Source of the DNA: Daphnia pulex
Taxonomy: Eukaryota; Arthropoda; Branchiopoda; Diplostraca; Daphniidae
Direction of reading: 5' to 3'
Length of the DNA stretch: 64,000 nt
NCBI RefSeq assembly: GCF_021134715.1
Contig: NC_060025.1
Coordinates: 806,001 to 870,000, forward strand
Positions 31,916 through 63,226 of this stretch are shown piece by piece (the stretch's first letter is position 1; each line of letters begins with the position of its first letter). Under the pieces are notes generated by a model, which was not told the DNA's origin, made no database searches, and saw only the letters and a program-made list of their open reading frames with translations. A program made the position numbers and the translations under genes.

Positions 31916-33422
31916 TTAGTGGCTGGCTATTTGGTAAGATGTGGTGTAGTACTCTGGAGCCTTCGTGGTGTAGTACTTGGGAGCTTCGGTGTAGTAGCTG
32001 GGAGCAGCGTAGGTCGTAGTGTAGTAAGGTGCTGGAGTTGTGTAGTATTCAGCTTTCTTGGTGGTGTAGTATTCTGGCGACTTAGTGGTGTAGTAGGAGG
32101 CAGTTGTATAGTACTCAGCTGCTTTGGTGGTGTAGTACTTTGGGGCCTCAGTGTAGTAAGTTGGGGCTGCATAAGTCTTAGTGTAGTAAGGTGCCTGCGT
32201 TGTGTAGTACTCGGGTGCCTTGATGGTGTAGTAGGCAGCAGTGGTGTAGTATTCTGGAACCTTGGTGGTGTAATAATCCGGAGCCTCGGTGTAGTAACTG
32301 GGAGCTGCGTAGTATTTTGGGGCTTCCGTCTCGTAGCTTGGAGCAGCGTAGTACTGGGGTGTTTCAGTGTAGTAAGTTGGCTCAACATAGTAAGATGGGG
32401 CAGCAGCGGTGTAGTAAGTTGGGGCTACGTAATACTTGACAGCTTCAGTTGTGTAGTAAGGAGCAGCTGTAGTGGTGTAGCTTGGAGCTGAATAATATTT
32501 CGGAGCCTCGGTGTAGTATTCAGGTGCCTTGGTGGTGTAGTACTTGGGAGCTTCGGTGTAGTAGCTAGGGGATGCGTAGGTCGTAGTATAGTACTCTGGA
32601 GCCTTAGTGGTGTAGTAGGAGGCAGTGGTGTAGTACTCGGGAGCTTTAGTATAATAAACGGGCGCTTCAGTCTGGTAATAGCTCGGGGCAGCATAATACT
32701 TAGGGACCTCAGTGTAGTAAGTTGGCTCTGCGTAGTATGACGGGGCAGCAGTGGAGTAGTAACTAGGATAACCGTAAGATTTGGTGTAGGCAGCAGTAGT
32801 TGTGGTGTAGTATTCGGGATCAGCCTTAGCGTAGTAAGTTGCAGTATAACTGGGAGAAGAGTAGCTTGGAGCAGAGTAGTAACTGGGGACAGTCGTGGTG
32901 TAGTAGACGGGATCAGCGTAATACGAAGGAGCAGCAGTGGTGTAGTAAGTTGGTGCTGCGTAATTCTTTGGTGTTTCAGCGGTGTAGCTTGGAGCTGTGT
33001 AGTACTTTGGGTCCTCCTTGTAGTAACTTGGAGCTGCAGTGGTTGTGGTGTAGTATTTTGGCGGATCGGCGGGGGTGTAGTATTCTGGAGCCTTGGTGTA
33101 GTAACTGGGAGTCGCATACGCGGCACTGGTGTAGTATGGCGCCGGAGTGGTGTAGTAAGATGAGCCCATTGGTCCACCCAAAGTCGACACAGCCATCAAC
33201 AACGTGACGGCTAGTGACAGCAACATGACACGACACGCATCTGTTTGAAAAAAACATTTCATTATTATATACCATGTTTTGCAACAATTAATGTCTTATT
33301 GGGGAATCGTATTAGCACTCATATCCAAATTTATAACAAGAATTTTCACATATAAACTCAAGATATAAAACATGTTATGACGCAATAAAACAAACGAGAA
33401 TAAATGGGAAAAACTTACTCAT
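31916..33422 (-). CDS. Tyr-rich repeat secreted protein, subfamily A (gene 1)
   Basis: Two exons. Exon 1 contributes only ATGA (33419-33422, donor gtaagt); exon 2 is 31916-33240 (acceptor caaacag). The joined product is 442 aa and starts MNACRVMLLSLAVTLLMAVS, a signal peptide, then GGPMGSSYYTTPAPYY. The rest is imperfect 8-residue repeats built on YYTTKAPE, YYTEAPK, YYAAPSYY and YYVEPT, with two Tyr per unit. An upstream in-frame ATG (33262) lies in the intron and is not the start. The composition matches structural extracellular proteins such as cuticle or adhesive proteins, where Tyr can be cross-linked; this is inference. It ends SYQIASH. Confidence 0.88.
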
Positions 33423-33640
33423 GATGATAGACACGTGGGAAGATTTTTTCAAGATTCAGACAAATTCAGAACTGAAGTTGATCTGACGAAGGAACTGAAT
33501 CGAATGATCAACTTGGTGCCAACCCTGAGCTTTTATAGGTCGGCTGCGGGTGTCATCCTGCGATCCCGCATAATGCAATCTATGCCCAGCGGCTCTTTTT
33601 GTGTCAGGTACGGCCAAGGTTCCTTGCCACTCCCTCTGTC
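33419..33640 (-). promoter_or_regulatory. Conserved promoter-to-ATG block of gene 1
   Basis: TATAAAAG at 33530-33537 (minus strand) is followed by TCATTC, a match to the arthropod initiator, with its A about 32 bases on. The whole block from the ATG to about 33640 is nearly identical to blocks at 41010, 44033 and 48736. Confidence 0.8.
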
Positions 33641-34947
33641 TGATAGATTTTCTCGTTTCTTTTTGTCTCTCTCTTTGATACGATTACAGCCATTTACTTA
33701 ATGTCATTTGGATTTAAATTTTATCCTTAAGTGTGTATTATCTTATTCGCCATCAAAACCGATGCGATATTATAAAGGCTGTTACGCTCTCGGCTAATCT
33801 TTTTTTCGGTAACAGACATGTGGAACTATACAGAGTCTAAAAACAAACCTGTGATGAAAAAATATTAGTTATTAGCCCTGGCACGTGTGATACTGTACTT
33901 ATAAATAGCATGTTGTTGAAACAGTTAGTCAAGTTGATTAGGTTCGCATATTGGATAGTTTACGTCCAATGGCCTAGCTGATGTGTGCACATGTGTTTCA
34001 ATGTCCTTGGTTAAATAAAAAGAGAAAAATAACACTGTACCTGTTTACCCATGAAAAAACCCTGTAGTAGCCTACCCAATTAAAGTTAAGCAAATACTAC
34101 TTTTATCCAGATGTGTGATACGCAGAAACCTCGGTTCAATCCGATGGCAACTGGAATTTTGTTTTCTCTCTCAAGTATAAATAAAACAAGAATTTGTGGA
34201 TATTCCCTTCAAAGTCACTACACCTATAAAATTAAACAAACAAATTACGTCTTTGAATTATTCCCATATAATATTTTTCTTCTGTAATGAAAATATGTTT
34301 CCGGGATTCGATAAACTTTGATTGGGAGATGGTTCACTGTCTTGATTATCCTATTGTCAATTCCGTGGTAATACAATGGCAATACAAATCCGCAGAGAAT
34401 GTGATTATTCCGAACGACGGTTGCATATTTGAGCGAATGAAATACTTTAAAATAAATGATTTGCACCATAAATTCTGAAGGGGTATGTGTAAACATGTTT
34501 GACTATCTGCTGAAAAAGAATCGTGTCGCATTTTAACTTATAACAGAACGACGAAGACATAAAATATCCGAATAAGACAATCTAGTTTGATTAAAAGGTG
34601 CGCTCAGCCAACAAGCTGTAAAAATGGACGTCGCATTCATCATGGACCCAAAGAAGGCGACAAGGGCGGAAACTCGGCACTTTAGCACTCGATGACTTCT
34701 GTGCCTTTGAGCTATTACGTTTCGCTCTGTCTCGTTGAATTCATTCCGGTGTGAATGCACCGTAAGGCATTTCACAACAACATTTGGATGCGTCCAGTTT
34801 CGTACCGCAGTTCCACCACATCGGATGAACAATTCTACGTTTCCAAAAGGTAATACAACACAAACATTTAGAAAATGTTTCCTCAATCTATTCCTCGTTC
34901 TGAAATTCGTGATTTCTATTAAACCGTATTATTAAACAGGAAAACAG
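33641..34947. other. Intergenic DNA
   Basis: Holds the probable non-coding first exon of the 34948 gene (ends near 34851, ccaaaag|gtaata). The short overlapping open frames at 34245-34886 lack family matches and splice partners and are not called. Confidence 0.4.
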
Positions 34948-35490
34948 ATGGTGAAGATCAATTATTTTGTCTCATTGGCGGGTCTGTTAACTTTTTGCGC
35001 TGCCCAAAAAGACAATAAGGAAGATGTAAAGTATCTAGAAAATTGGAAATCTAACTGGAGAAAATTTGCGGTGAGGATATCAATGAAAATGCCTCAACTG
35101 TAATTTCGCAAAAAGATCAATTACGGTACATTTCTTAATTTGAAGGGTCGTTCATCTGAGCCCAGCGGACGTAGCAGCAGTTGTGCTGTCGGCAGTGTAC
35201 CGTGCGATTGTGCCAGCACTACTAGCACTTGCACCTGCGCTACCACCGGATGTACCTGCGCTGTCACCGGAGCCTGCACCTTCGGTACTGGAACAAGTAC
35301 AAATACCGCGACCAGCACCGGGACCAGTTCGAGTAGTACCACTACCTGTAGTAATTGCATTTGTACTACAGTCACATGTACCAATGCAGCCGATCCTACT
35401 ACGTGCTTAACAACTTCCACTGGCACGGCATGCACCTCCACCAGCACTGGAGGAGGAGGTGGGGGAGGAGGTGGAGGAGGAAAAAAGTAA
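34948..35490 (+). CDS. Secreted Cys/Thr-rich protein with poly-Gly tail (copy 1)
   Basis: Two coding exons, 34948-35070 and 35146-35490, joining in phase 0 to 155 aa. Exon 1 encodes a signal peptide (MVKINYFVSLAGLLTFCAAQ) and a short charged segment ending NWRKFA-like. Exon 2 is GRSSEPSGRSSS, then about 14 Cys in spaced pairs among Thr/Ser/Ala (PCDCAS, STCTCATTGCTC, CSNCICTTVTC), ending in a run of Gly and KK. The start follows an acceptor (aaacag); two candidate acceptors exist because of a small local duplication. Exon 1 matches the genes at 36229, 42126 and 49793. No known family; a disulphide-linked matrix or mucin-like protein is possible. Confidence 0.8.
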
Positions 35491-36228
35491 ATCAAGATGG
35501 AATAAAATCAACAAGTAGCATCAAATACAAATGTTTTTTTTCCATTTTAAGAAATTAATTGTCGTGACTTTACACACTTTGGATAATAAACGGTCGAATT
35601 GGTTGGTAAAAATATTGTTAAAATCTTTGATTAATTCAATGAGAATGCGCGGCAGTGCGGCTAGATTAAAACAAATGGATTTAAGTTTTATTTAAAGCTC
35701 AATTTTATAGACTCGATTAATTTCTTCCATTAATTTCTGTTCAAACCTATCGATGTGTCACGCGAACTAATATCCATATGGTTGAATGTCTAATATTAGT
35801 AAAATGATCTAGAATAAAAATTTAATGCGCACAGCAAAGCTTGACTGAAGGAATGTATGCACAAGTGTTTGATTATCTGATTAAACATTTACTGAAAGAC
35901 CAGACATGGTAGTGTCGCAGTTAACCTGAATAATGGCAGTATAGCAGTCTATCCTAAAATATTGCACACTGTGTAATGACGCAGCAGATGAAGTGATTTT
36001 GATAGCTAACCTGAATAAGGCATATGGGGCATATGCGCAATTCACGATAAATTCGGATGCGTCGGAGCTGGGCAACTTTAGTGTCGTACCGCTGTTCAAC
36101 CTAATCGGGTCAACGAGTCTCTACGATTCTAAAAAGGTAATAATTCCTATCGTACATTTTTTTAAAAACCAATTTTCAATAATTTTTTACCGGCACCAAA
36201 TTTGAAATTCGCTATTTCTATTAAACAG
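35491..36228. other. Intergenic DNA
   Basis: 3' flank of one Cys/Thr-rich gene and 5' region of the next. A donor-like ctaaaaag|gtaata near 36137 probably ends the non-coding first exon of the 36229 gene, paralleling the upstream copy. No other gene seen. Confidence 0.45.
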
Positions 36229-36815
36229 ATGGGGAAGATAAACTATTTTGTCTTATTGGTGGTGCTAATAACTTATTGCGCTGCCCAAAAGAGTAACAAA
36301 GAAGATGGAAAATTAACGAAAAATGAGGAATCTGTCTGGAAAAATATTATGGTAATAAGTTAAACGAAACAATTTCGAATCTATTTTCGCGGTAAATTTG
36401 AATTCTCAACCTGAAGAATGGCCGTTTGGAGGCCAGCAGCCGTAGCAGCAGTTGTTCCATCGCCAGTGTGCCATGCAGTTGCGCTAGCGCTTCGGGCACT
36501 TGTACCTGCGCTTCCACCGGATGTACCTGCTCCGGAACGTGCACCATCAGTACTGCTACTGGCACTACTACAAGCACCACTTCCGGTTCAAGTAGTACCA
36601 GCACTATTTGCAGTAACTGCATCTGTACTACAACCACATGCACCAATGGAGTATGTGGCACGCCATCCGTCGTCGGCACGGCATGCACCTCCACCACTGG
36701 GGGCACTGGAGGAACTGGAGGAACTGGGGGCACTGGAGGTACTGGAGGCACCGGTGGCACTGGCGGAACAAGCGGAGGAGGCGGCGGCGGAGGAGGAGGA
36801 GGTGGTAAAAAATAA
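36229..36815 (+). CDS. Secreted Cys/Thr-rich protein with Gly-Thr tail (copy 2)
   Basis: Two coding exons, 36229-36351 and 36417-36815, giving 173 aa in phase 0. The signal peptide MGKINYFVLLVVLITYCAAQ closely matches the previous gene. Exon 2 has the same 14-Cys framework (PCSCAS, GTCTCASTGCTC, CSNCICTTTTCTN). It then has GTGG repeats (TGGTGGTGGTGG) and a poly-Gly-KK end. The start ATG sits directly on the acceptor (aaacag|ATG). It is a tandem duplicate of 34948 on the same strand; the tail has expanded independently. The function is unknown; an extracellular location is expected. Confidence 0.8.
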
Positions 36816-38011
36816 AACGAAAGTGCATTTTGAAAAAAAAAAAAAAATAAATAAATAAATGTGGTGATGGGCTTTATTCTTTTATGGATTTTTCATAAGT
36901 GTCAGTATTAATATCTAGAATAAAATAACTGACGTCATTCAACCATGTTATTTTAACGTATTACTAAGGGATTGATAAAATCTGCGAATAATTTAGTTCC
37001 TCTTAATTCAATATTCCTGTGGTTTTTCTTTTAGACTATTGTTTTTATTTAAATCTAAATACGTCTAGTAAAATTACTATTATGTAATGATGAGAGAGTA
37101 GGGCAAGGGGTCCGACACTCCAAAAGTTTTCCAAACACTAGGGAAAAATAAAACAAGAAAAGAAAAAAGAAAAGCCCAAATAAGGCTAAGGAAAGGTTAC
37201 AAAAAAAATGGCCTCAAGGAAAGGGGAGTTTCCAGCGGTAGGCAAAAAAAGGTTTTGGAGAAACCTTTTTCTCATTTCAACATTTATGCAAAAAAATATC
37301 CAACAAAAGAAAAAAAAACAAGTGGAAACTTCAGCAGAGTCGATGTCGAACCCCTTGGAGTAGGGGAATGTTTCTACTAAACAAAAACAATTTTGCCCGT
37401 TACCTAGATATCCATACTTGGTATTTCTTAATTACTATTTCGTTGGTCATTATCTAAAGCTATTCAAAGGAACGTTACGATAATCAGTTTCTAGAATTTG
37501 ACACACATTATGGTATTTTGCACCCCCTTCTAATATCCTCAGAGCACGCGTGAATAAAGCTCGTTTTCCAATTTGACAGGAAAAGTATTTCCCACTCACT
37601 ATAGTAGAGCTAACTATTTTAAAAATCAGATGGTATCATTTTCTTGAATTAAATTTTTGATTTGCTGAGATTGTAATAATTATGAAGAAAAGTAGCGAGA
37701 AGTTCAAATCGTTGTTTTTTTAATATACTTCCAAGTGTCGTGTTGGTAGGGCGAAATAATTGACTAGATAGCGGGAAATGAAGGTGAACCAGGTGATTTC
37801 AAGTTTTTTCAACCGACAAATTAAAAAAAAGGGAAACACTTTCCACTTCCAAATTGCGCCAGAGACCAGAGGTACTACTTGGCCTCAATACAAAAGGCTA
37901 ACGAGAAATATCTAAAGTAGTATCTTGTATAAACAACACGCTTAGATTACCTTGGACTAGAATGGTAAAGGTATCAGACGGTACCAGCTAAAACTAGTCA
38001 CTTAGTTTGAC
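36816..38011. other. Intergenic DNA, A-rich
   Basis: An AATAAATAAATAAAT run at about 36846-36860 probably includes the poly(A) signal of the 36229 gene. 37120-37330 is rich in A tracts. No gene, RNA or mobile element supported. Confidence 0.45.
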
Positions 38012-38019
38012 TATAAAAG
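38012..38019 (+). promoter_or_regulatory. TATA box of the Gly-rich gene
   Basis: TATAAAAG, 54 bases before the start codon of the 38066 gene; consistent with a leader of roughly 20-25 bases. Confidence 0.75.
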
Positions 38020-38065
38020 CAGCGCAGTCTCCGTCAACAAATCACAGAAACAAACAAACTTCAAA

Positions 38066-38690
38066 ATGAACAAGGTAAGATTTAGTATAACACATCCACC
38101 TGCTAAATCAATTGCACATATATAATTCTATTGAATTTAAATCTAAAATTTGTGTTACCTGTTTTTGTACCTTAGGTGTTGATCAGTTTGGCTCTTCTCT
38201 TCTCCGTGGCTGCGGCTGCACCACAATTCCTCGGCGGTGGATTCAATAACGGATTCAACGGAGGATTCGGACCCGGCGTCGTAGGATTGCGTCCCGTTGG
38301 CGGTTTCGGTGGTTTGGGAGGTTTCGGTGGTCTCGGTGGTTTCGGTAAATACAAATTTAATTACAGTTTTTCTATTCATGGTAAAAACAAAACAAAAAAT
38401 GTTATGTGATAATTTTTTTAACAAACAAGGCGGTGGCGGAAGTGGCGCCGGAGCTGGAACAGGATCTGCTAATCTTTTTGGAGCAAACGCAGCAGGAGTA
38501 AGTGATTACGGTTGTTATGGCATAACTTTTGGTGCATGTCTTTATGCTGTGGTTATTCTTTTAGGTCGGCACTTCTAGTGCCTTTAACGGTGGATTCGGC
38601 TCTGGAAGTGGAAGCGGTCTGGCTGGATCAAGCTTGTTCGGCGGAAATTTCGCATCCGGCACCGGCAACGGACAAAGTTTCGGCAAATAA
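38066..38690 (+). CDS. Gly/Phe-rich secreted protein (cuticle or antimicrobial-like)
   Basis: Four exons: 38066-38074, 38176-38344, 38430-38497 and 38565-38690, giving 123 aa with consistent phases. Exon 1 encodes only MNK; exon 2 completes the signal peptide VLISLALLFSVAAAAPQ. The mature part is Gly-rich with GGF, GGLGGFGG, SGAGAGTGSANLFG and FGSGSGSGL motifs and ends GNGQSFGK. Similar Gly-Phe-rich proteins are known in arthropod cuticle and as crustacean Gly-rich peptides; the assignment between these is open. The tiny first exon interrupting the signal peptide is typical of arthropod cuticular-protein genes. Confidence 0.85.
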
Positions 38691-38767
38691 GTAAATTTCA
38701 ACCATTTTCATCGTGACAGACTATTTGTAAAGACTATACGCATGTTGTAAAAAATGTGGCGCTGAAA

Positions 38768-38773
38768 AATAAA
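38768..38773 (+). terminator. Polyadenylation signal
   Basis: AATAAA 78 bases after the stop of the Gly-rich gene. Confidence 0.55.
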
Positions 38774-38927
38774 TTAATCAAACTCATTTTTTTAAGGTAA
38801 TTCAATATTTTAATTTCCGACAATCATAACTTATAAGCTCCGGAAAGCTCATTTGCGGGCAAATAGGTATTTAACTAACAAAAATAGAATAAGATCAGAA
38901 ATCAACATATAACAAACTCAATTACAA

Positions 38928-41013
38928 CTAATATTTTGAAGTCTCGACGTAGTATGAAGGAGCAGAGGTGGTGTAGTATTTTGGGTCCTCTTTGTAGTAC
39001 CCTGGAGCTGCGTACGTTGTGGTGTAATATTCCGCAGCCCTGTTGGTGTAAGTTGGCTCAGCGTAATACATGGGATCTGGAGTAGTGTAGTATTCAGCTT
39101 TCTTGGTGGTGTAGTAGGAGACAGTTGTATAGTACTCCGAAGCTGCTTTGGTGGTGTAGTACTTGGGGGCTTCAGTATAGTAGGTAGGGGATGCATAGGT
39201 CGTAGTGTAGTAAGGAGCCGGAGTTGTATAGTACTCGGGAGCCTTGGTGGTGTAGTAAGCAGCAGTGGTGTAGTACTTGGGAGCCTCGGTGTAGTACTTG
39301 GGAGCCTCGGTGTAGTAGCTGGGAGCAGCGTAGGTCGTAGTGCTGTAGTAAGGTGCCGGAGTAGTGTAGTATTCAGCTTTCTTGGTGGTGTAGTATTCTG
39401 GCGCCTTAGTGGTGTAGTAAGAGGCAGTTGTATAGTACTCGGCTGCTTTGGTGGTGTAATACTTGGGGGCCTCAGTGTAGTAAGAAGGAGCTGCATAAGT
39501 CGTAGTGTAGTAAGGAGCCGGAGTTGTGTAGTACTCAGGTGCCTTTGTGGTGTAGTAGGCAGCAGTGGTGTAGTATTCTGGAGACTTGGTGGTGTAGCTG
39601 GGAGCAGCGTAGTATTGAGGTGCTTCGGTGTAGTAAGTTGGCTCAACATAGTAAGATGGGGCAGCAGTGGGGTAGTAAGTCGGGGCTACGTAATACTTGG
39701 CAGCTTCAGTGGTGTAGTAAGGAGCAGCTGTAGTGGCGTAGCTTGGAGCTGAGTAATACTTCGGGGCCTCGGTGTAGTATTCAGGTGCCTTGGTGGTGTA
39801 GTACTTAGGAGCTTCGGTGTAGTAGCTAGGGGCTGCGTAGGTCGTAGTGTAGTACTCTGGAGCCTTGGTGGTGTAGTAGGAGGCAGTGATGTAGTACTCG
39901 GGAGCTTTAGTATAATAAACGGGCGCTTCAGTCTGGTAATAGCTCGGGGCAGCATAATACTTAGGGGCTTCGGTGTAGTAGCTTGGGGTGGCAGTTGTGT
40001 AGTACTTTGGTGCTTCGGTCTCGTAGTAGCTGGGAGCTGAGTAATATTGCGGAACCTCGGTGTAGTAAGTTGGCTCAACATAGTAAGATGGGGCAGCAGC
40101 GGTGTAGTAAGTTGGGGCAACGTAATACTTGGCAGCTTCAGTGGTGTAGTAAGGAGCAGCTGTAGTGGTGTAATTCGGAGCTGAATAATACTTCGGGGCC
40201 TCAGTGTAGTATTCAGGTGCCTTAGTGGTGTAGTACTTTGGGGCGTCGGTGTAGTAAGTTGTCTCTGCATAGTAAGACGGAGCAGCAGCAGTGGAGTAAT
40301 AACTGGAATCACCGTAAGATTTGGTGTAGGCAGCTGCAGTTGTGGTGGTGTAATATTCAGGATCAGCCTTAGCGTAGTAAGTTGCAGTATAACTGGGAGC
40401 AGAGTAGCTTGGAGCAGAGTAGCTTGGAGCAGAGTAGTAACTGGGGACAGCCGTGGTGTAGTAGAGTGGATCAGCGTAATACGAAGGAGCAGCCGTGGTG
40501 TAGTAAGTTGGTGCTGCATAATACTTTGGGGCTACCGTGGTGTAGCTTGGAGCTGGGTTATACTTCGGGTCCTCCTTGTAGTAACTTGGAGCTGCTGTAG
40601 TTGTGGTGTAGTATTTTGGCGGATCAGCAGTGGTGTAGTACTTTGGCGGATCGGTGTAATATTCTGGAGCCTTGGTGTAGTAGCTTGGAGTCGTATACGC
40701 GGTGGTGGTGTAGTATGGCGCCGGAGTGGTGTAGTAGGATGAGCCCATTGGTCCACCCAAAGTCGACACAGCCATCAACAACGTGACGGCTAGTGGCAGC
40801 ATGACACGACACGCATCTGTTTGAAAAAAACATTTCATTATTATACCATGTTTGCAAAAATTAATATCTTATTAAGGAGTCATATTAGCGCTCACATTTA
40901 GAAATTATAAAAGAATTTTCACAATCAAACTGAAAATGTAAAACATGGAATGACACAAACAAGGTAATGACACAATAAAACAAACGAGAATAAATGGCCA
41001 AAATCTTACTCAT
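38928..41013 (-). CDS. Tyr-rich repeat secreted protein, subfamily A (gene 2)
   Basis: Exon 1 gives ATGA (41010-41013); exon 2 is 38928-40816. The product is 630 aa starting MNACRVMLPLAVTLLMAVS (signal peptide), then GGPMGSSYYTTPAPYY. The body is repeats such as YYTEAPKYY, YYTTKAPEYYTT, APSYYVEPTYYTE and TTTYAAPSYY. A three-copy SAPSY run lies near 40400-40440 (minus strand). It ends SAPSYYVETSKY. The intron and promoter are almost identical to those of the 46994 gene, marking a recent duplication or conversion. A structural matrix role is inferred. Confidence 0.88.
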
Positions 41014-41797: not shown

Positions 41798-41805
41798 TAT
41801 AAAAG
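41798..41805 (+). promoter_or_regulatory. TATA box of the 42126 gene
   Basis: TATAAAAG; a non-coding exon follows and ends near 41935 (attgcgg|gtaagt), with the coding exon from 42125. Confidence 0.7.
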
Positions 41806-42125: not shown

Positions 42126-42733
42126 ATGAAGACACTGAGCTTCGTCTTGTTATTAGCAGTGCTGGTATCGTTCTGTGATGCTGCCCAAAACGAGTTTGGT
42201 GATAACAAGGAATTGTTGCGTTATCCGAGAAATGTAGAAGCTACCTGGAAAAAGTTTATGGTAAGGAAATAAGAATCTAGAATGATGTAGCCTACTTCCG
42301 AAAATACTACGTTGGCATCGGCTGGTAAAATCAAAACAAAATTCCCCCCCATTTTATAAATTTCCATTTGAAGGGTCGTCTCCTGAAGAACATCAGAACT
42401 ACTCGTGAAGCTGCAAAGCGCGAGTTGAATTTACCCAAAGCACCTTCGGCTGCCATCGACGAAAAGCAAGAAGAAGGCGTTGGTGTCGAGAACAACACCA
42501 AAAACAATGGTACCAAAGTGAATAGCCAAAGCTGTTCATCTATTTTCGGCTGTACGATCACGGCAACTGAAAACAGCACCGTTCATGTCGGCAACAGCAG
42601 TAGCAGCGTGGACAGTAGCAATAACAGCAGCAACAGCAACAGCTCCAACGGTAGTACGAGTACCTCAGGTGGAGGCGGCACTGCTACCAGCAATAATAGC
42701 AGCAGCAGCAGTAGCAGTAGCAGTGGCAAATAA
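42126..42733 (+). CDS. Secreted Ser/Asn-rich low-complexity protein (copy 3)
   Basis: Two coding exons, 42126-42260 and 42374-42733, giving 164 aa. The signal peptide MKTLSFVLLLAVLVSFCDAA is followed by QNEFGDNKELLRYPRN and TWKKFM, matching the 49793 gene. Exon 2 starts GRLLKNIRTTREAAKRELNL, then a PKAPSAAIDEKQ segment, a QSCSSIFGCT motif with two Cys, and a Ser/Asn/Gly tail (NSSNSNSSNGS, SSSSSSSSGK). The start follows ccaacag|A-ATG. It belongs to the same exon-1 family as 34948 and 36229, with a different low-complexity tail. The function is unknown. Confidence 0.82.
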
Positions 42734-44673: not shown

Positions 44674-44955
44674 TTAATAATAAGCAGGAGCCATGTACGA
44701 AGGAGCTTTGTATGCTGGTGGAGAATATGCTGGTGGAGTATAAGCAGGAGGAGTATAAGCCGGAGGAGTGTATGCAGGAGGAGTGTACGCTGGTGGTGTG
44801 TAAGCGGGAGGAGTGTATGCTGGTGGTGTGTATGCAGGAGGAGTGTACGCAGGAGGTGTGTACGCAGGAGCCATTGGTTTGTATCCGTAGCCTGGATTAC
44901 CAGCCACCACTGCAACGGCAGCCAAGAAGCAAACGGCGAAATTGATCATCGACAT
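44674..44955 (-). CDS. Small secreted Pro-Ala-Tyr repeat protein (copy 3)
   Basis: 93-aa protein. The signal peptide MSMINFAVCFLAAVAVVAG is followed by NPGYGYKPMAP, nine AYTPP units, then AYSPPAYKAPSYMAPAYY. The coding exon starts three bases after an acceptor (cccgag|tag ATG). The non-coding first exon ends near 45053 (gtcaaag|gtaatt), followed upstream by the TATA box at 45150. It is the closest relative of the 11175 gene, with a near-identical leader and promoter. A cuticle or matrix role is inferred. Confidence 0.85.
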   Translation of the reverse strand: MSMINFAVCFLAAVAVVAGNPGYGYKPMAPAYTPPAYTPPAYTPPAYTPPAYTPPAYTPPAYTPPAYTPPAYTPPAYSPPAYKAPSYMAPAYY

Positions 44956-51916: not shown

Positions 51917-52701
51917 ATGTGTAAGTTTTTATTTAATTACTTTAAATCGGAAGTTTTTTTTTTTAATTTATGAATTTTTGTTAAAAATTAGGTAACGCTA
52001 TTTTGTACGCGTTGTTGGCTGGCGTTTGTTTTTCGGCTCATTTACTGCGGGGCGTTGGGTCGTTGCCAGTACCGACGACGACCAGCACGGAAAGTCCGCC
52101 GATTTCGCCCGCAGTTTCTTCAGATGCAGACACTGACGAATCGACAGCGGAGGCTTCACGGGAAGTTTCTTATTACACCGCTGTGGCTTCAACGTCCCGT
52201 CAGGATAGTCCCGGCAGCAGCCGCATGTTCACCGTAACGGCCATTTTCAAAAAGCCGGCGCCTTCGCCGGAATCTGACGATTCCTCGACCGACGAACAAC
52301 CCACCGACCCCAATTTGCCTCTTTCATCTGCTGTGGTCTCTTCGTCGACGGCCGAGGAGAGCTGCTCGTCGGGAGTTGTCCAACGGGGCCCGTGCCGCAA
52401 GAGGTCCGCTTCCACCGAACGAATGTCCAAAGAGGTCCTGGATTTTTACACGCCTGGCGCTAAAAGGAGTTTGAGGGAAGCGAATCCTTCGTCCGAAAAT
52501 TGGGCTGTTCCGAATCTCGAAAAATCGCCCGGCCACAATGAAACCTCGTCCGCAGCCAACAGCCAGTCACGCCGGTCCAGTCATTCACGTGATTCAGACA
52601 GTCCTTCGCCCGAGAGTTCGAATAAAGAAGCTTCCTCCGCTTCCAAATCGTCCAGTGATTCATCATCCACCGATAAAAGCCAACCGGGAACGCCCATGTG
52701 A
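51917..52701 (+). CDS. Secreted Ser-rich acidic protein
   Basis: Exon 1 gives ATGT (51917-51920, donor gtaagt); exon 2 is 51992-52701 (acceptor attag). 237 aa. The signal peptide MCNAILYALLAGVCFSAHLL is followed by Ser/Thr/Pro/Asp/Glu-rich sequence (TTTSTESPPISP, SPESDDSSTDEQPTD). There is one short ordered segment, MFTVTAIFKKPAP, a basic GPCRKRSASTERM motif, and YTPGAKRSLRE. The tail is almost all Ser/Lys/Glu/Asp (SSSDSSSTDKSQPGTPM). It looks like an intrinsically disordered, heavily phosphorylatable or mineral-binding secreted protein; no family recognised. The microexon start is as in the Tyr-repeat genes. Confidence 0.8.
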
Positions 52702-53596: not shown

Positions 53597-55726
53597 TCAA
53601 TAACGAGGTTGCGAATAATATTTCGAAGGTTCACCGTAGTACTCGGGTGCCTTAGTGGTGTACTTCGGAGCCTCGGTGTAATATTCTACCTTTTTCGTCG
53701 TGTAATATTCGGCCGCCTTGGTGGTGTAGTAGGAGGCAGTGGTGTAGTATTCTGGAGCCTTGGTGGTGTAGTATTTGGGGGCTTCAGTAGCGTAGTATTT
53801 GGGGGCCTCAGTAGCGTAGTATTCAGCAGCCTTGGTGGTGTAGTATTCAGCGGCTTTGGTGGTGTAGTATTCAGCGGCTTTGGTGGTGTAGTATTCAGCG
53901 GCTTTGGTGGTGTAGTACTCGGGAGCTTTGGTGGTGTAGTACTCGGGAGCTTTGGTGGTGTAGTACTCGGGAGCTTTGGTGGTGTAGTACTCGGGAGCTT
54001 TGGTGGTGTAGTACTCGGGAGCTTTGGTGGTGTAGTACTCGGGAGCTTTGGTGGTGTAGTACTCGGGAGCTTTGGTGGTGTAGTACTCGGGAGCTTTGGT
54101 GGTGTAGTATTCAGCGGCTTTGGTGGTGTAGTACTCCGGAGCTTTGGTAACGTAGTATTCAGCTGCCTTGGTGGTATAGTACTCGGGAGACTTGGTGGTG
54201 TAGTACTCGACGGCCCTAGGAATGTGGAACTCAGGAACCATGGAAGCAGAGTAGTATTTGTGAGGCCTGGCGTGCATAAACCTGTTGCCGCGATCTTGAT
54301 GTCCAAAAGCTGTGGAGTAGTAGGCAGGAGTTTCGGCATCGTAATAGCTGGAAGGCGAGTAATAAGCGGGAGCTTGGGCGTAGTAATTCGGCTGGACATA
54401 CGAAGAGTAGTAACGGGAATCAAAATAGTAAGACGGGGCAACTGTGGTGTAATAATTCTGAGCAGAATATTTCGGCGCCTCGGTGTAGTAAGTCGGCTCA
54501 GAGTACGAAGGGTAGTATGCTGGAGCTGCAGTTTCATGGTGGCTCACGGCTGAATAGTGATTCGGAGCTTCAGTGTAGTACGTCGGTTCGACATGATAAG
54601 AAGGAGCAGCGGTGGTGTAGTAAGTTGGGGCTACGTAATACTTAGCCTCTTCAGTGGTGTAGTAAGGAGCCGCTGTGGTGGTGTAGCTCGATGCGGAGTA
54701 GTACTTGGGGGCCTCAGTGTAGTAGCTTGGAGCGGCGTACGTCGTGGTGTAGTACTCTGGCGCTTCAGTGTAGTAAACTCCCTCAGAATAGGTGTAGTGA
54801 TCTGGAACGGCGGTCTCGTAATGGCTCAGGGCTGAGTAGTATTGAGGTGCCTCGGTGTAATAAGTAGGCTCTGCGTAGTAAGTTGGGGCAGCTGTGGTGT
54901 AGTAAGTTGGGGCAACGTGATACTTAGCACCTTCAGTGGTGTAGCTTGGAGCAGAGTAGTACTTCGCGGCCTCAGTGTAGTATTCAGGAGCCTTGGTGGT
55001 GTAGTAAGCAACAGTGGTGTAGTATTCAGGAGCCTTGGTGGTGTAGTATTCAGGAGCCTTGGTGGTGTAGTATTCAGGAGCCTTGGTGGTGTAGTAAGCA
55101 GCAGTGGTGTAGTATTCGGGAGCCTTGGTGGTGTAGTAAGCAGCAGTGGTGTAGTATTCTGGAGCCTTGGTGGTGTAGTAAGCAGCAGTGGTGTAGTATT
55201 CTGGAGCCTTGGTGGTGTAGTAAGCAGCAGTGGTGTAGTATTCGGGAGCCTTGGTGGTGTAGTAGGATGCAGCAGTGGTGTAGTACTCGGGAGCCTTGGT
55301 GGTGTAGTAGGATGCAGCAGTGTAGTACTCCGGGGCCTTGGTGGTGTAATACTTTGGAGGCTCGGTGTAGTACTCAGGGGCCTTTGTCGTGTAGTAGGAT
55401 GCCGTTGTGTAATATTCCGGAGCTTTTGTGGTGTAGTACTTTGGAGCCTCGGTGGCGTACTCTGCTTTCTTGGGGACGTAAACAGGAGACGGGCCCACAG
55501 GTCCTCCCTTGGTCGATCCAGCCATCATCGATGCAACCGCCAACAGCAGCATGACGCCGTAGTTAGCTAATGAACGCATTAAAAAGCCGTATCAACACTT
55601 GTCGTTCACACAAATTATCGAGTAAAACTTTTTTTTTAAACATAACTTTTTAAAAACAAGTGAGACTTGCAAACAAGAAATTAAAGTTAAAGACTGAACT
55701 ACAATTAAAGTTATATGATTACCCAT
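53597..55726 (-). CDS. Tyr-rich repeat secreted protein, subfamily B (gene 5)
   Basis: Exon 1 gives ATGG (55723-55726, donor gtaatc); exon 2 is 53597-55566 (acceptor cattag). The longest member, 657 aa. The signal peptide MANYGVMLLLAVASMMAGST is followed by KGGPVGPSPVYVPKK. The body has N-terminal YYTTKAPEYYTTAAYY repeats, a middle with PTYYTEAPQYYS-type units, and a unique non-repeat stretch AFGHQDRGNRFMHARPHKYY. Then comes a long array of KAPEYYTT/KAAEYYTT units, eight of them identical at DNA level. It ends GEPSKYYSQPRY. The in-frame ATG at 55579 lies in the intron. Secreted structural protein by inference. Confidence 0.88.
53914..54105 (-). repeat. Eight identical 24-bp units (KAPEYYTT)
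   Basis: A run of eight units of tactcgggagctttggtggt plus gtag, identical base for base, inside the 53597 gene. Flanking units differ by one or two bases (KAAEYYTT). Confidence 0.9.
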
Positions 55727-55838
55727 AATAGCGAGCTGAAAGTACTCTAGATGATACAGCGGATAACAAACTGAAGTCCTGCTGGTGATGTCGTGTGGAG
55801 GAGACACACTCGACTGATTCTGATACTCTCTTTCTCCC

Positions 55839-55846
55839 TTTTTATA
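55839..55846 (-). promoter_or_regulatory. TATA box of the 53597 gene
   Basis: TATAAAAA (minus strand) followed at the expected distance by TCAGTC (initiator). Confidence 0.75.
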
Positions 55847-56455
55847 TGTCTCCAATAAAGCACAGTATCCGTCTGAAGCGGGAAAAAACGGCCTTGGGCA
55901 TGCTTTAGGCTATTCACGTGCGACGTATGAGGTAAGAGTCTAGATTTTCTAACCCTACCTCTAGGGCGTGACGTAATTGGCTGTGGGCGTCACCGTTGGT
56001 TCGTTCTCATTGATCTTTTGATGTATTGGAAATTTACATCTGGCATTGTGGCCTACGGTGGAGAACTTTATGAAATTAAATCTAATGACATAATAACTGG
56101 TCTGTTTCGCTTGTCGAATCATCTGGCCAAATTGTTTTATTGTATACGCGTTAAGGTTTTGTAAGATGGCCACAGACTTAAGACGATGAACGCGTTATTT
56201 TTAATTAGATTGGATTATACAAAAAGCGGAAAGATGTGTATGCTTGTTAGATTGCTGAAGTATATGTGTATTTGTGTGATAAGCAAGAAAAATCTAATGA
56301 TTAAAGACATATAATTGGGCAGAGATTGACAGATCAATTACTGCTGAAATATGGAATAGAGTTCTAGATTGTATTTCTATCTAATTGTTTTCAAATCATT
56401 AAAAAACAAAGTTTAGCTTGACACTAACTCAGACTAGACTATTTGAGTCTTTTCT
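55847..56455. other. Intergenic DNA
   Basis: Separates gene 5 from the chitin-binding gene. No supported feature. Confidence 0.45.
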
Positions 56456-56858
56456 TTAAAAGGGTGTGTCCTTGCGACAGTTGGAATTGGATTGGTTTGG
56501 GAAATCGCACGTTGGATAATAATAGCTGTCCTCGCCAACAGTCCAGTACAATCCGTCGGGGCATTTCATACGAATCGGAACACCATCGGAGCATTGATGA
56601 TAATATCTGAGATTTCACAAATTTCGCTCTATTGTTATGAAGACAAATAATTGGGATAAAGTTGATTTTCTCTACATACCCACAGTAATATGCGTCAGAC
56701 AGGAAAACTGTATTGTAACTAAATTCTGGACATGTTCCGACGGGAGTTGGCAATGGCGCCTCTCCTGGATGTCCCATATTTCTTTCAAGTTGCGGAAGAG
56801 CGGAGCAGCTAACAATAACTGCAACCAAGAGGTAACCCCAAGCTAAATCGATTCTCAT
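56456..56858 (-). CDS. Single-domain chitin-binding (peritrophin-A, CBM14) secreted protein
   Basis: Two coding exons, 56680-56858 and 56456-56606, giving 109 aa. The signal peptide MRIDLAWGYLLVAVIVSCSA is followed by a short linker and one type-2 chitin-binding domain. Its cysteines are in TCPEF, AYYCGYYHQCSDG, MKCPDGLYW, PTCDFP and NCRKD, with the aromatic YYHQCSDG and CPDGLYW signature. The intron splits the domain (GG|A). The start is the ATG at 56858; an upstream TTG frame is not needed. A non-coding exon ends near 56965 (aaaaag|gtaagt). It should bind chitin in cuticle or peritrophic matrix. It sits between two Tyr-repeat genes. Confidence 0.92.
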
Positions 56859-57683: not shown

Positions 57684-59239
57684 CTAGTATGCTGGCGCAG
57701 AATAATATTTGGGAGCTTCGGTGTAGTACTCGGTTTTCTTGGTTGTGTAGTACTCAGGTGCCTTTGTGGTGTAGTAGGAAGCCGTGGTGTAGTACTCGGG
57801 AGCCTTGGTGGTGTAGTACTTAGGAGCCTCGGTGTAGTAGCTGGGAGCGGCGTAGTACTGAGGTGCTTCGGTGTAGTAAGTTGGCTCAACATAGTAAGAT
57901 GGGGCAGCAGCGGTGTAGTAAGTTGGGGCTACGTAATACTTAGCAGCTTCAGTGGGGTAGTAAGGGGCAGCTGTAGTGGTGTAGGTTGGAGCCGAATAAT
58001 ACTTTGGGGCCTCTGTGTAGTAGCTAGGGGCTGCGTAGGTCGTAGTATAGTACTCTGGAGCCTTGGTGGTGTAGTAGGGGGCAGTTGTGTAGTACTCGGC
58101 GGCTTTTGTGGTGTAGTAGGAAGCAGTGGTGTAGTACTCGGGAGCTTTAGTATAATAAACGGGCGCTTCAGTCTGGTAATAGCTCGGGGCAGCATAATAC
58201 TTAGGGGCTTCGGTGTAGTAGCTTGGGGCGGCAGTTGTGTAGTACTTTGGTGCCTCGGTTTCGTAGTAGCTGGGAGCTGAGTAATACTGCGGAGCCTCGG
58301 TGTAGTAAGTTGGCTCAACATAGTAAGACGGAGCAGCAGCGGTGTAGTAAGTTGGGGCTACGTAATACTTAGCAGCTTCAGTGGTGTAGTAAGGAGCCGC
58401 TGTGGTGGTGTAGCTTGGAGCCGGGTAGTACTTTGGAGCCTCAGTGTAGTATTCAGGTGCCTTGGTGGTGTAGTACTTGGGAGCGTCGGTATAGTAGCTG
58501 GGAGCTGCGTAGGTCGTGGTGTAGTAAGGCGCCGGTGTTGTGTAGTACTCGGGTGCCTTGGTGGTGTAGTACTTTGGAGCCTCGGTGTAATAACTAGGAG
58601 GCGCATACGTTGTGGTGTAGTAATTTGGAGCCTCGGTGGTGTAATACTTCGGAGCCTCGGTGTAGTAGCTAGGGGCAGCGTAGGTTGTTGTGTAGTACTC
58701 GACCTTCTTTGTGGTGTAATACTCGGGCGCCTTTGTTGTATAGTAGGAAGCCGTGGTGTAGTACTCGGTAGCTTTGGTGGTGTAGTACTTCGGGGCCTCG
58801 GTGTAATAGGTAGGAGCTGCATACGTCGTGGTGTAGTACTCTGGCGCTTTAGTGGTGTAGTACTTCGGGGCCTCAGTGTAGTAGCTGGGAGCAGCGTAAG
58901 TCGTCGTGTAGTATTCAGCTTTCTTGGTGGTGTGGTACTCTTTCGTTGTTGTGGTCTGGTAATAGCTACTTGATGCAGAAGATGAGCCCATTGGTCCACC
59001 CTTAGTAGATCCAGCCAGCATCGAGACAACAGCTAGCAGCAACGTGATGGCAAAGTTAGCTGATGATAAAAATTGTAAAGTTAATCAAAGTGTCAAAAGA
59101 ATTATTTCAAAGTGATCTCGTAAATCATTTTAGTACATTAAACACGATACTATGGGAGTTAAAAAAACATTACTGAAACTTTCAAAACACATTTAAGTAA
59201 CAAGTTATAAAACAAAATAAATGAAGAATTTATACCCAT
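57684..59239 (-). CDS. Tyr-rich repeat secreted protein, subfamily B (gene 6)
   Basis: Exon 1 gives ATGG (59236-59239, donor gtataa); exon 2 is 57684-59059 (acceptor catcag). 459 aa. The signal peptide MANFAITLLLAVVSMLAGST is followed by KGGPMGSSSASSSYYQTTTT, then repeats TTTYAAPSYYTEAPKYYTT. The N-terminus is subfamily B like gene 5. The middle (about 58130-58400) is nearly identical in DNA to gene 4 of subfamily A, including the rare EAPVYYTKAPEYY unit. It ends EAPKYYSAPAY. A mosaic gene, intact and probably expressed. Confidence 0.88.
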
Positions 59240-59347
59240 GGCAACAGGTTGAAATTTGATGGCACAGTAAATGACAGATAGACTAAGTGCTCCTGTTGAC
59301 GTGTCGAAAAGGCGAACTCGACTGATTTCAATAGCCTCTACTCCCGT

Positions 59348-59355
59348 CTTTTATA
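59348..59355 (-). promoter_or_regulatory. TATA box of the 57684 gene
   Basis: TATAAAAG (minus strand) followed by TCAGTC with its A about 32 bases on; the same arrangement as gene 5. Confidence 0.78.
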
Positions 59356-60016
59356 CCCCAACATTACCCCAAAATTCGCGCCGCTGGCGTGATTTTCTTT
59401 ATGATGATGAAAGAATCAAGATTCTAACTCCTCCCCTTTTTCATGCCACACAATCAATAAAGCAGATTATTTTTCATTGTAAGAATCCTGTTATAGATAA
59501 CAATTAAATATTTCTGCAATTAAAATTTACAAAATAAATATTAATTTCTATTAAAGAATAAGACACCGATATGTAATGTTTGAGATTTAATTGTGATTCG
59601 TAAAAATATTAAAAATCGATCCACTTTTCTTATTTATCAATATTTTCATGACGCGGCTAATTTTAAATCGTTTTTATTGATCCCTGTTAATTCAGAACTA
59701 AACAAGATTATCACCGCTGTGTTATTTCTCTTGATCATACGAATCAGGAATGACGTAAGGGAAATTCAGCTTTAAACAGCCAAGAGCAAAATGGGTAAAC
59801 GACTAAACGTAGGTACTTGGCATCCATATTGCCGCACAGAACTGTAAAACATATGACTGGCTTAACATAAGGTAAGTTAGCAAATAATTCGGTGGTAAAT
59901 TACTGGAACAAACAATTAGATTATGAGGGATAAACACTGGACCAAATGAACTTAAAACTTATCCGAAGGGCTTTAAAAGAAGTGGTCACATGTTTGCTGT
60001 GCAAATATTTTCGTGC
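59356..60016. other. Intergenic DNA
   Basis: AT-rich; no supported feature. Confidence 0.45.
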
Positions 60017-60834
60017 TTACGATTCTGGTAGATCTGAAGGGATATTATTATTTTTCCTCGTCACCAAACACAAAGGCTCCGTCTGTTCAGGATCTGACCA
60101 ATAAACTGACTCTTCACACGATAAGACTCTCAAAGATTCTGGATGTGGAGATGAGTCAAGACTAGTAGATAATTCTTCCATTGAAACTAAATTATTTTCT
60201 TCTAAAATGGAAAAACAGATCGAGTCAAACAAAGTCTCAAAAAATTATGCAAAATGGGGTACCTCTGTTTTCTTTGTCGGAATCCAAATTTCTTGATGTC
60301 TCAAGTAGTTTACGGTTTTGACGGTAACGATAAATTGTACTGCGGACACACCTGAAGGAAGGAATCAGCGGTTCAGGGACACCACCTTTGATAACCTGCC
60401 GACGGAGTTCTTCATAGACGGAAGCAGAAGTGGCCGGTTGAATTTCTCCCGAATCGGCTACAACATTGTCCAATTGAACAAGTAACTGGCGACGAAATTC
60501 TTTGCCGATCAAATTTGGTCCATTTGGCAGATGTTGGTGTTGAAAATTTGTACTGCGACGAGAAAACTTCATCTCTCCAGTTTCGTGATTGACACAGACG
60601 CTGATCAAACGAACGTTACATCCACGTCGAGAACAACACCAATAGTCGACATTCTAATAGGACAACAATTTAAAACCAGACTACTTTTATAGACATAATA
60701 GTGGAAAACTCTACCTTGTATTTACGATTATGGTGAAAATAATAATCCTGGTAGATGACGGCGATTTTATCGAATCTGGTTCGGCAGAGAATGACGTCGA
60801 CGACGACATTAAATAGAGACAATTGCATTGGCAT
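60017..60834 (-). CDS. FLYWCH-type zinc-finger protein
   Basis: Three coding exons, 60715-60834, 60263-60653 and 60017-60201, giving 231 aa from MPMQLSLFNVVVDVILCRTR. Residues about 25-75 form a FLYWCH-like finger: YQDYYFHHNRKYK, then NVDYWCCSRRGCNVRL with the Cys pair, ending FQHQHLPNG with the His pair. It is split by an intron after the first half. The remainder is a helical region (EFRRQLLVQLDNVV, SVYEELRRQVIKGG, RSTIYRYRQNRKLLE) like the region after the finger in transposase-derived proteins, and an acidic tail. FLYWCH domains bind DNA or protein and are common in mobile-element-derived genes. Another upstream exon is possible. The cellular role is unknown. Confidence 0.7.
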
Positions 60835-61718
60835 CTTGGATGCTAAACGGTTGAAAATCGACTGACGATCTCTTACAACTTTATGTTGAAGTAAATAGCT
60901 CCCTGACCTTGGAAGCAATATTTCCCGGAATCGGACCAAATTTACCTCTAAACGAGGAGGTGTGGCGACAATATTTGTTTTCGGTAAAACCCAAGAGAAA
61001 TCGACGAATAGAATTATGACAACTTTGATCTGAAATTAAATGAGCTGAATTTTCTTTTTGATCAATTGTGATAAAAAGAAATTTGATTCCTGAATTGTGT
61101 GGATACAAATATTGTTTTCTTCCTTTCGCCAAATCTTCATTGTTTTATGTTTTATAGAATATTTCTTATTTAGAATATTAATAAAAAGTAAAGAGGACAC
61201 AGGCAATTGGCTGGACTTTGTAAGTGCGAAGTAGATGGAGCCTGACAAAGCGTCTCGGCCATAGACAAGGCAAATATAATGATAATTAGACATTCATTAA
61301 CTGTGAAAATAATTTTAAAAAAACAATTCAAGTTTAAGACAATCTTATTGTATTACCTCAATTAAAATATCAGTTTCATATAAGTTGATTATACATTTTT
61401 TAAAATAAACTTTAAAGTCTAACAATATAATAAAGTTCTAACTTATTTTTCACTGGTGTCCGCTGTCAATATGATGCCACCGTAATAATGTAATAAGACG
61501 GAACGGAGTAATAATTGTTGAACAACGTGTGTAAAACTGTCGCTGACTGAAATATGTTACTTTCTAAAATAATACTGACAAAATAAACACATATTCAACA
61601 GTGTGAAAGCGCTCAATCCAAGTTGCATCAATCAAAAGCAGACGCGTGTGTTCATAAATAGGCAACGTCAACCAACATCAATCATACTTCAACCTTCAGA
61701 GTTCAGACGGATATCGAC
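60835..61718. other. Intergenic DNA between divergent genes
   Basis: Open frames at 60881-61293 (minus strand) carry no recognisable domain and probably lie in the 5' region of the FLYWCH gene. Nothing else seen. Confidence 0.4.
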
Positions 61719-62342
61719 ATGGCTGATTTTAACGACTACCAGTCTCAATTCTTTTATCAACCCGCTGCTGCTGAAGAATGGATCCGTCAATACCAAAGGA
61801 TTGACCGTCAGTTGGCAGAACTCCAATTCCGATTGGAAATCGGCAATGATCTTGATTTGACCCACAAGACTGTCTCGGGTCATTTACAGGAGCTTAAATA
61901 CCTTTATTCGTCCCTGCTGGGTTCTGACCATGACGATCTGGGCAAGCGAAAAATGGTGATCGAACTTATTGCCACTGCCACACGCCTTCTGAGCCAAATC
62001 GAACAACGTAAGCAATTTAAGGATCGTTCGACACCAGTTTTTCCCAACACAGGAGACCAACAGATGAAAATGGAAGAGCACAAATTGATCGGCATGAAAA
62101 AACTACAGCAGAGCGTCGAAAGCCTGAATGATGTTTTCAAAAGTCTAGCTCAACATGTCGCAGATCAGGACAGCTTGGTCGACAGCATCGAATCGCAAAT
62201 CAAAGGGACTAACGAAAATACTAACGAGGGATGTCAACAACTGACCGAAGCGGAAAGTTTCCAAACTGGAAAACGTTGGCTGATTGCTAAATTTACTCTG
62301 GTCGCTTCTTTTATCGTCGGTATCGGACTTCTTCTGCTCTAG
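61719..62342 (+). CDS. Intronless syntaxin-like Qa-SNARE
   Basis: 207-aa single-exon protein starting MADFNDYQSQFFYQP. Residues about 15-95 are helical (RQYQRIDRQLAELQFRLE, RKMVIELIATATRLLSQIEQ), consistent with a reduced N-terminal Habc-type bundle. Residues about 120-185 match a syntaxin SNARE motif (LQQSVESLNDVFKSLAQHV, ADQDSLVDSIESQIK). The central Gln in ADQDS corresponds to the ionic-layer Q. It ends in a short charged spacer and one C-terminal membrane anchor (LIAKFTLVASFIVGIGLLLL). It is shorter than typical syntaxin-7/12 (about 260 aa). It would act in membrane fusion. Lack of introns in an intron-rich window suggests a retrocopy or a fast-evolving duplicate. Confidence 0.8.
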   Translation: MADFNDYQSQFFYQPAAAEEWIRQYQRIDRQLAELQFRLEIGNDLDLTHKTVSGHLQELKYLYSSLLGSDHDDLGKRKMVIELIATATRLLSQIEQRKQFKDRSTPVFPNTGDQQMKMEEHKLIGMKKLQQSVESLNDVFKSLAQHVADQDSLVDSIESQIKGTNENTNEGCQQLTEAESFQTGKRWLIAKFTLVASFIVGIGLLLL

Positions 62343-62434
62343 ATGAATTGACTTATCGTCTTATCCCCGCAAGAATACTCGATAAATCACATCTTCTTTT
62401 ACGAAATACATTGCAAATTCCGAAATTGATTTGA

Positions 62435-62440
62435 AATAAA
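62435..62440 (+). terminator. Polyadenylation signal
   Basis: AATAAA 93 bases after the stop of the SNARE-like gene. Confidence 0.55.
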
Positions 62441-62678
62441 CGTCATAATAATATCTAAATAGTTCGCTTTCTGTCTACCTATTTTTAATTAACAACCACG
62501 CAAAAATTTAATCACACGTAGCTTATATTTGTTTTCAATAAATCTCTGTAAATATTTCAATCCATTTCAGTAAAACCCAAAATCAAAATTAATTACCTCA
62601 CGATGGCAATTAATGAATGTGTGAAGAGAAACGAGAATATGACTAAACATTTAAAGGTTTTCCCAAGAAAATATGAAA

Positions 62679-63226
62679 TCAATACGATGGCACTGCCCTC
62701 TGATAGCTGGCGGGATACGACACAGTAGTAGTGTAGTATGATGGAGCGGAATAGTACTTGTGAGCTTCGGTGTAGTAACTTACTGTGGTGTAGTACTCTG
62801 GCGCCTTTGTAGCGTAGTATTTCTCAGTCTCGGTGTAGTAGCTTGGAGTGGTGTAGTAAGGGGTCGGCTGAGTGTAGTAGCTCGGAGTGGCGTAGTATTT
62901 TGGAGCCTCGGTGTAGTACTCTGGCGCCGGAGTTGGGTAGTAGCTTTGAGGTTGAGTGTAGTAGTATTCGCCGGCTTCATTGGCTTTATGCTCCATCCTG
63001 CCCATGTGACCTTTAGGCATCATACCACCCAAAACGCCATTGGATGCCCACAATAGACATTGAATCAGCAAGATCTTATTCATGTTTTTGATCGAACCAG
63101 ACAGACCTGTAAAACATAAATGCATACGATTTAAAATCTCAGAACAACTTTTCAAACAAATAATACTAGATTAAAATTGAAATATTTAACATCATTAGCA
63201 ACGAAACAGTAAAATAACTTACTCAT
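62679..63226 (-). CDS. Short Tyr-repeat secreted protein, subfamily C (gene 7)
   Basis: Exon 1 gives ATGA (63223-63226, donor gtaagt); exon 2 is 62679-63106 (acceptor ttacag). 143 aa: MSLSGSIKNMNKILLIQCLL signal peptide, then a unique mature start GGMMPKGHMGRMEHKANEAG. About ten Tyr-pair units follow (YYTQPQSYYPTP, YYTEAPKYYATP, YYATKAPEYYTT), ending SYQRAVPSY. Its N-terminus differs from subfamilies A and B, so it is a separate branch. The shared intron after ATG and a TATA box at 63331-63338 tie it to the family. Secreted structural protein by inference. Confidence 0.86.

Follow-up and report, generated by a model that had tools for sequence, protein, structure and literature searches.

A tandem cluster of secreted tyrosine-repeat genes in Daphnia pulex and a related gene branch in dispersed, palindromic repeat units

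How did a dense group of genes for secreted, tyrosine-rich proteins arise in one part of the Daphnia pulex genome, and how are the related sequences scattered over other contigs connected with it? These questions are raised by a stretch of 64,000 nucleotides of contig NC_060025.1 (assembly GCF_021134715.1, positions 806,001 to 870,000, forward strand), hereafter the window, whose coordinates are used below unless a contig (C1 to C12) is named. We consider it rather probable that two layers are present jointly: a tandem cluster of shell-type genes, and one branch of their family, spread in repeat units that fold back into palindromes. The palindromic spread of the gene family is a more unusual result than the cluster.

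Seven tyrosine-repeat genes (Y1–Y7), all on the minus strand, form a genuine cluster between 31916 and 63226. An earlier note, made from the letters of the window, had described seven intact genes of this kind and a divergent relative (YR), and all eight were found:

31916-33422, minus strand: Y1, tyrosine-repeat gene, 442 amino acids (exon 1, ATGA, at 33419-33422; exon 2 at 31916-33240)
38928-41013, minus strand: Y2, tyrosine-repeat gene, 630 amino acids
42980-44036, minus strand: Y3, tyrosine-repeat gene, 304 amino acids
46994-48739, minus strand: Y4, tyrosine-repeat gene, 515 amino acids
50776-51243, minus strand: YR, divergent tyrosine-rich relative, 155 amino acids, with the start taken at MWVIFAF
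53597-55726, minus strand: Y5, tyrosine-repeat gene, 657 amino acids
57684-59239, minus strand: Y6, tyrosine-repeat gene, 459 amino acids
62679-63226, minus strand: Y7, short tyrosine-repeat gene, 143 amino acids
63584-64000, plus strand: gene for a secreted Tyr/Pro/Ala protein of 348 amino acids, with the same 4-base exon 1, reaching 64694 beyond the window

The span given in that note, 31916 to 63226, holds the cluster, but the cluster extends further, through the gene at 63584-64694 and an eighth tyrosine-repeat gene, Y8, past the window end (65365-67116 in window coordinates), and it has a SNARE-like gene inside it (61719-62342, plus strand; 24.8 bits, just below the cut-off of 26.8).

In cuticular protein genes, the signal peptide is typically interrupted by an intron that follows a very short coding exon, and this layout was found in 7/7 of the tyrosine-repeat genes, each with a coding exon 1 of four bases (ATGA or ATGG), an intron, and a single long exon in which the signal peptide is completed and the repeats follow. 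A signal peptide is present in all seven. The proteins contain 19.6–25.8% tyrosine, arranged in YYTTKAPE or YYTEAPK-like units, with 12–72 YY pairs per protein against 5.4–41.6 expected from composition, an excess that holds for each protein.

The ratio of nonsynonymous to synonymous substitution rates (dN/dS) was 0.10–0.29 in eight cluster pairs (Y1-Y2, Y1-Y4, Y2-Y4, Y1-Y3, Y2-Y3, Y6-Y8, Y5-Y6 and Y4-Y8), 0.12–0.18 for pairs with, or between, the dispersed copies at C5:1.86 Mb and C9:0.28 Mb, and 0.19–0.31 in three pairs of C7 copies linked to the repeat units described below. Because dN can come out too low when repeats are aligned under the guidance of the protein, eight pairs were also tested as aligned nucleotides (four from the cluster, two between cluster and dispersed copies, and two unit-linked). 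Third-position changes exceeded first- and second-position changes in each pair, and 83 of the 87 gaps had lengths that were multiples of three (10/10, 10/12, 13/13 and 14/14 in the within-cluster pairs). Judged by these substitution and gap patterns, the tested tyrosine-repeat genes are coding genes under selection, which is purifying in the cluster.

The promoters are also alike. All seven genes have a TATA(A/T)A motif 112–120 bp before the ATG and, 29–32 bp beyond it, TCAGT or TCATT as an initiator-like motif; this pair of motifs occurs in 3.6% of random 400-mers. The claim that most genes of the region have such promoters held for 9 of the 16 gene rows (Y1–Y7, YR and CS4), but a strict scan found none at the other seven, namely both Pro-Ala-Tyr (PAY) genes, the chitin-binding CBM_14 gene, three genes with Cys/Ser tails (CS1–CS3) and the Ser-rich gene, all listed below. 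Upstream of Y1–Y4, identity was 93.0–97.5% over about 200 bp (four comparisons) and 41–55% over the next 200 bp. This drop near -200 (at 33422-33622 for Y1, and upstream of Y2–Y4) may mark how far gene conversion, or else constraint, extends.

The cluster sequence itself shows the signal peptides, the promoter motifs, the constraint on coding and the duplication in tandem, and we infer a cuticle location, a lack of structure and cross-linking for its products. The cluster would thus be a tandem array of secreted, low-complexity, tyrosine-rich structural genes of the kind known from arthropod cuticle. The epidermis would secrete the proteins as chains that look unstructured from their composition, the tyrosine pairs would provide dense aromatic contacts oxidisable to dityrosine or quinone links, and adjacent chitin binders would supply anchorage. 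The cluster offers specific candidates that can be tested for a role in a tyrosine-cross-linked layer of cuticle or egg case.

Known systems resemble the cluster in part. PMC2932725 deals with low-complexity cuticular proteins of arthropods, among them those with GYR/YLP-like tyrosine motifs, and counts 228 matched genes in D. pulex; like the cluster proteins, they are secreted and repetitive, with conserved tyrosines and many paralogues, whereas the cluster has YYTTKAPE/YYTEAPK-like repeats and lacks the Pfam GYR motif in the sequences scanned (part of Y1, Y7 and YR). Nematode epicuticlins, as presented in PMC9612446, share two exons with a short exon 1, repeats in exon 2, a signal peptide and tandem tyrosine motifs, but their GYR repeats have 49–51 residues, against about eight here. 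Dpep-1 to -3 are expressed where the ephippium forms (PMC10190107), and they could be relatives of the tyrosine-repeat family. The word tyrosine is absent from the main text of five papers on predator-induced change or resting eggs in Daphnia (PMC4236883, PMC4514973, PMC13322756, PMC6073494 and PMC10190107), and no description of the cluster or of the dispersed unit was found among the papers listed, which represent a portion of the open literature.

The gene family is not confined to the cluster. In a protein search for tyrosine-repeat sequence, the 150 listed of 339 matches merged to 89 loci on 12 contigs, many of them convergent pairs and some retaining long open frames. A query with the signal-peptide exon gave 150 matches on C1–C12 (150 scored of 805 first-look candidates), with more than one match in some loci. 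Neighbouring exon matches within 13 kb formed 51 pairs, of which 36 were convergent, 2 divergent and 13 on the same strand; the convergent excess has a binomial P of about 1e-11 against an expectation of one quarter. Open frames of at least 300 amino acids were present at just 18 of the 150 exon starts. Many dispersed copies look broken, and a minority have long open frames.

The convergent tyrosine pair at C7:2077200-2087413 (2.078/2.085 Mb) has mirrored arms of 3.1 kb, which are 85% alike overall, a figure lowered by repeat parts of unequal length. Its outer ends carry different signal peptides; on the inner side, the arms agree at 100% over the first 576 bases downstream and again over a further 919. 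The arms have unequal numbers of repeats, and their coding sequences differ at a synonymous distance (dS) of 0.056. The inner "core" DNA of this pair is itself a dispersed repeat, found at 40 places among the 150 listed of 208 matches, with listed tyrosine matches within 4 kb on both sides in 7 cases, on one side in 11 and on neither in 22. Conversely, 25 of the 89 listed tyrosine loci lie within 4 kb of the core repeat, and all 25 turn their 3′ side toward it. In 2000 randomisations the mean was 0.63 and the maximum 6, with assumed sizes for C1, C3, C4, C6, C10, C11 and C12; since C1 and C11 are shorter than assumed, this mean is somewhat low. At another core palindrome, PAY-like matches stand symmetrically at C7:1740754 (plus) and C7:1754991 (minus), 4.6 kb outside both ends, and the larger palindromes may include members of two families of matrix genes.

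The window has its own copy of such a unit, left of the cluster:

6834-10951, plus strand: decayed single copy of the dispersed unit, with diverged internal repeats, two broken tyrosine modules and a noncoding tail
10749-10951, plus strand: terminal fold-back of this unit, a 31-bp inverted repeat (10749-10779 and 10921-10951, 100% identical) around a 141-nt loop

Its broken tyrosine copies, at 7804-9233, are an addition to the features of the earlier note. The unit was found at 18 other places with 80–94% identity and main pieces of 1.6–4.7 kb (23 scored of 1102 candidates), on C1, C2, C5, C7, C8, C9, C10 and C11, that is, on seven contigs besides its own. These copies form 11 convergent (tail-to-tail) pairs and 8 single places, including the window's own, the others being without a listed partner. 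The copy at C9:953138-957866, which is 93% alike and includes more upstream DNA, is probably a local duplication. Adjoining the right end of the window unit, 10952-11360 (plus strand) contains a PAY-like promoter, together with a PAY-like match that includes a stop.

In four palindromes, the coordinates of the arms overlap by 31–33 bp. The centres of these four, out of the 11 palindromes, were read, and each contains one loop, 97.8–98.6% like that of the window unit, in either orientation. The arms beside these centres are mirrored past the 31 bp, with 106/106, 101/103, 110/111 and 97/101 aligned bases identical, and gaps of 1 to 14 bases occur in the aligned central arms at three of the four. 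A single loop with mirrored arms at the 31-bp terminal inverted repeat is the product that fold-back copying predicts. At the C1:4.44 and 4.67 Mb centres, about 13 additional bases lie within the 31-bp repeat in one of the two arms, perhaps left by a hairpin that was cut off-centre.

We propose that a branch of the family, comprising the intron, the signal-peptide exon, the tyrosine repeats and downstream DNA, joined high-copy dispersed units. A unit end, broken or unwound, would fold on its short terminal inverted repeat and be copied back, giving a tail-to-tail palindrome, and single and palindromic units would then spread over the chromosomes; the dispersal of the copies is what suggests this movement. 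Capture of the gene by the repeat would be the simpler direction, unproven as it is, and is consistent with a tree in which the unit exon copies (5 of 15 rows) grouped with weak support, in 77% of 200 bootstrap trees. Foldback/Galileo-type elements likewise have long inverted arms in many dispersed copies, as was found for the units (11 pairs; 36 of 51 neighbours convergent). The units differ in having a host-type structural gene in the arms, coexisting single-arm copies and, at the four centres read, a palindrome centre formed by their own terminal hairpin, with neither a transposase nor a target duplication seen here. A bolder version, which we regard as tentative and doubtful, is that a shell-type host gene is the cargo of a mobile repeat, of a kind absent from the papers listed, that multiplies by snapping back, its 31-bp end priming itself to yield a palindrome of 7–8 kb, with selected copies feeding new secreted tyrosine-rich genes into the genome.

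Several observations weigh against the two-layer reading. A Pfam scan of 327 of the 442 residues of Y1, of Y7 and of YR gave no match up to E=1, and thus neither Chitin_bind_4 (CPR, R&R) nor GYR (PF02756) or a YLP motif. In five of the seven palindromes unread at the centre, 0.5–2.7 kb separate the listed arms, which simple fold-back does not predict unless there was later insertion or loss. Six outer ends from three palindromes fell into at least three upstream lineages, without fixed ends and with no target-site duplication in any of the six. GTGAGT was considered as a sharp outer transposon end and rejected, since the upstream sequence is common within lineages. No transposase was seen in five core pieces, whose open reading frames were judged by length only (longest, 162 amino acids). 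A second unit type has the tyrosine part in common and an unrelated tail. A single tail common to all units was rejected, as the two tails compared are unrelated, and two unit types with unrelated tails do not correspond to one simple element. The limited bootstrap support for the unit group is a further point, as is the identity of some arms at all bases compared, which makes an assembly fold-back artefact possible for some palindromes.

An ordinary tandem expansion of the cuticle type would make the scattered copies pairs that arose in place and were kept alike by conversion between convergent neighbours, rather than mobile units. Duplicated cuticle genes have already been reported in Daphnia (PMC4236883 and PMC3584848), the C7:2.078/2.085 Mb pair, with differing 5′ ends and inner stretches that are 100% alike, is what conversion would give, and some dispersed loci have long open frames, with dN/dS values of 0.19–0.31 in the three C7 unit-linked pairs. 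However, the unit recurs with its noncoding tail and recurrent ends at 80–94% identity on eight contigs, 22 of the 40 core repeats have no listed tyrosine match within 4 kb, and conversion in place cannot carry a unit between chromosomes; we therefore consider this explanation rather unlikely. It is less likely still that the tyrosine-rich open reading frame originated as part of a repeat element and that the cluster genes are domesticated copies, even if matches to the unit-type exon far outnumber the cluster genes. In the cluster genes, promoters are complete and exons canonical, the match of the window unit to the cluster region is confined to unit positions 841–2399, approximately the unit's tyrosine-module stretch, and the unit copies form one group in the tree, with the weak support given above.

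Fold-back artefacts are reportedly known from long reads (PMC12870357), and the palindromes at C1:4.44 and C1:4.67 Mb have two outer ends that are identical over roughly 158 bases compared, as might be suspected of artefacts of assembly or library preparation. Nevertheless, the C2:1.21 Mb pair has unlike outer flanks on its two sides, the two arms at C7:2.08 Mb have unequal repeat numbers and different coding sequences and signal peptides, and the four centres read have one common loop in both orientations, with small differences between the arms. We therefore regard an artefactual origin of the palindromes as very improbable. If the two-layer reading is true, numerous copies of a secreted structural gene have been carried across a single crustacean genome by a repeat family, some of them in fold-back palindromes, which would provide a datable system for palindrome formation in animals and for the growth of a matrix protein family, and could account for assembly and annotation trouble in palindromic regions. 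If the cargo version is also true, the spread of a mobile element and the diversity of shell proteins would be coupled.

Other genes for secreted proteins are interleaved with the tyrosine-repeat genes:

34948-35490, plus strand: CS1, secreted, Cys-rich, with a Ser/Thr/Gly tail, 155 amino acids, 15 Cys
36229-36812 (end approximate), plus strand: CS2, like CS1, 174 amino acids, 15 Cys
38066-38700 (limits approximate), plus strand: Gly-rich secreted protein, several coding exons, modelled by eye from the frames
42126-42733, plus strand: CS3, homologous N-terminus, Ser/Asn tail, 164 amino acids, 3 Cys
44674-44955, minus strand: PAY1, secreted Pro-Ala-Tyr repeat protein, 93 amino acids
45961-46236, minus strand: PAY2, secreted Pro-Ala-Tyr repeat protein, 91 amino acids
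49793-50364, plus strand: CS4, Ser tail, 159 amino acids, 3 Cys
51917-52701, plus strand: Ser-rich secreted protein, exon 1 ATGT and an intron, modelled by eye
56439-56858 (end approximate), minus strand: chitin-binding protein with a single CBM_14 (peritrophin-A) domain, its two exons having been joined by eye

The Gly-rich and Ser-rich reading frames, the two PAY genes and the chitin-binding protein of the earlier note were thus recovered, the last with a CBM_14 match of 27 bits, above the Pfam gathering cut-off of 22.1. Its four Cys/Ser-tail genes are all homologous, with a common N-terminus (compared by eye), but only CS1 and CS2 are Cys-rich. A search with CS1 found CS1 and CS2 only; as it missed CS3 and CS4, genes like these two may exist elsewhere. 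The proposal that all these products are the parts list of one extracellular material fared less well. A secreted, low-complexity cluster of structural type stands, with tyrosine-repeat genes under purifying selection and one chitin binder, and a single material may fairly be inferred; the parts list is unsupported, because PAY-like and tyrosine-repeat sequences occur elsewhere, the SNARE-like gene lies inside the cluster and only two of the four Cys partners are rich in Cys.

The PAY proteins matched Extensin_1 weakly (34.8 and 24.3 bits, under the cut-off of 105), so their resemblance to extensin-like and mussel-foot-like Pro/Tyr repeats is compositional only. PAY-like sequence matches many other places, in particular C7 at 0.4–1.8 Mb and C6 at 1.2 Mb. 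A third PAY gene, also beyond the earlier note, lies at 603-962 on the minus strand of the window, and its protein (C9:806606-806878) is 98% identical to PAY2; a further PAY gene is located immediately left of the window (C9:805019-805291).

Two small, secreted-looking open reading frames at 2669-4368 (minus strand) had no Pfam match in the parts scanned, and one at 60237-60572 (minus strand) had none up to E=0.01. In the left half of the window, the pieces at 21886-22401 and 14360-14770 match MOR2-PAG1_C (67.9 bits) and Macoilin (47.5 bits), respectively, the former belonging to a furry-like gene.

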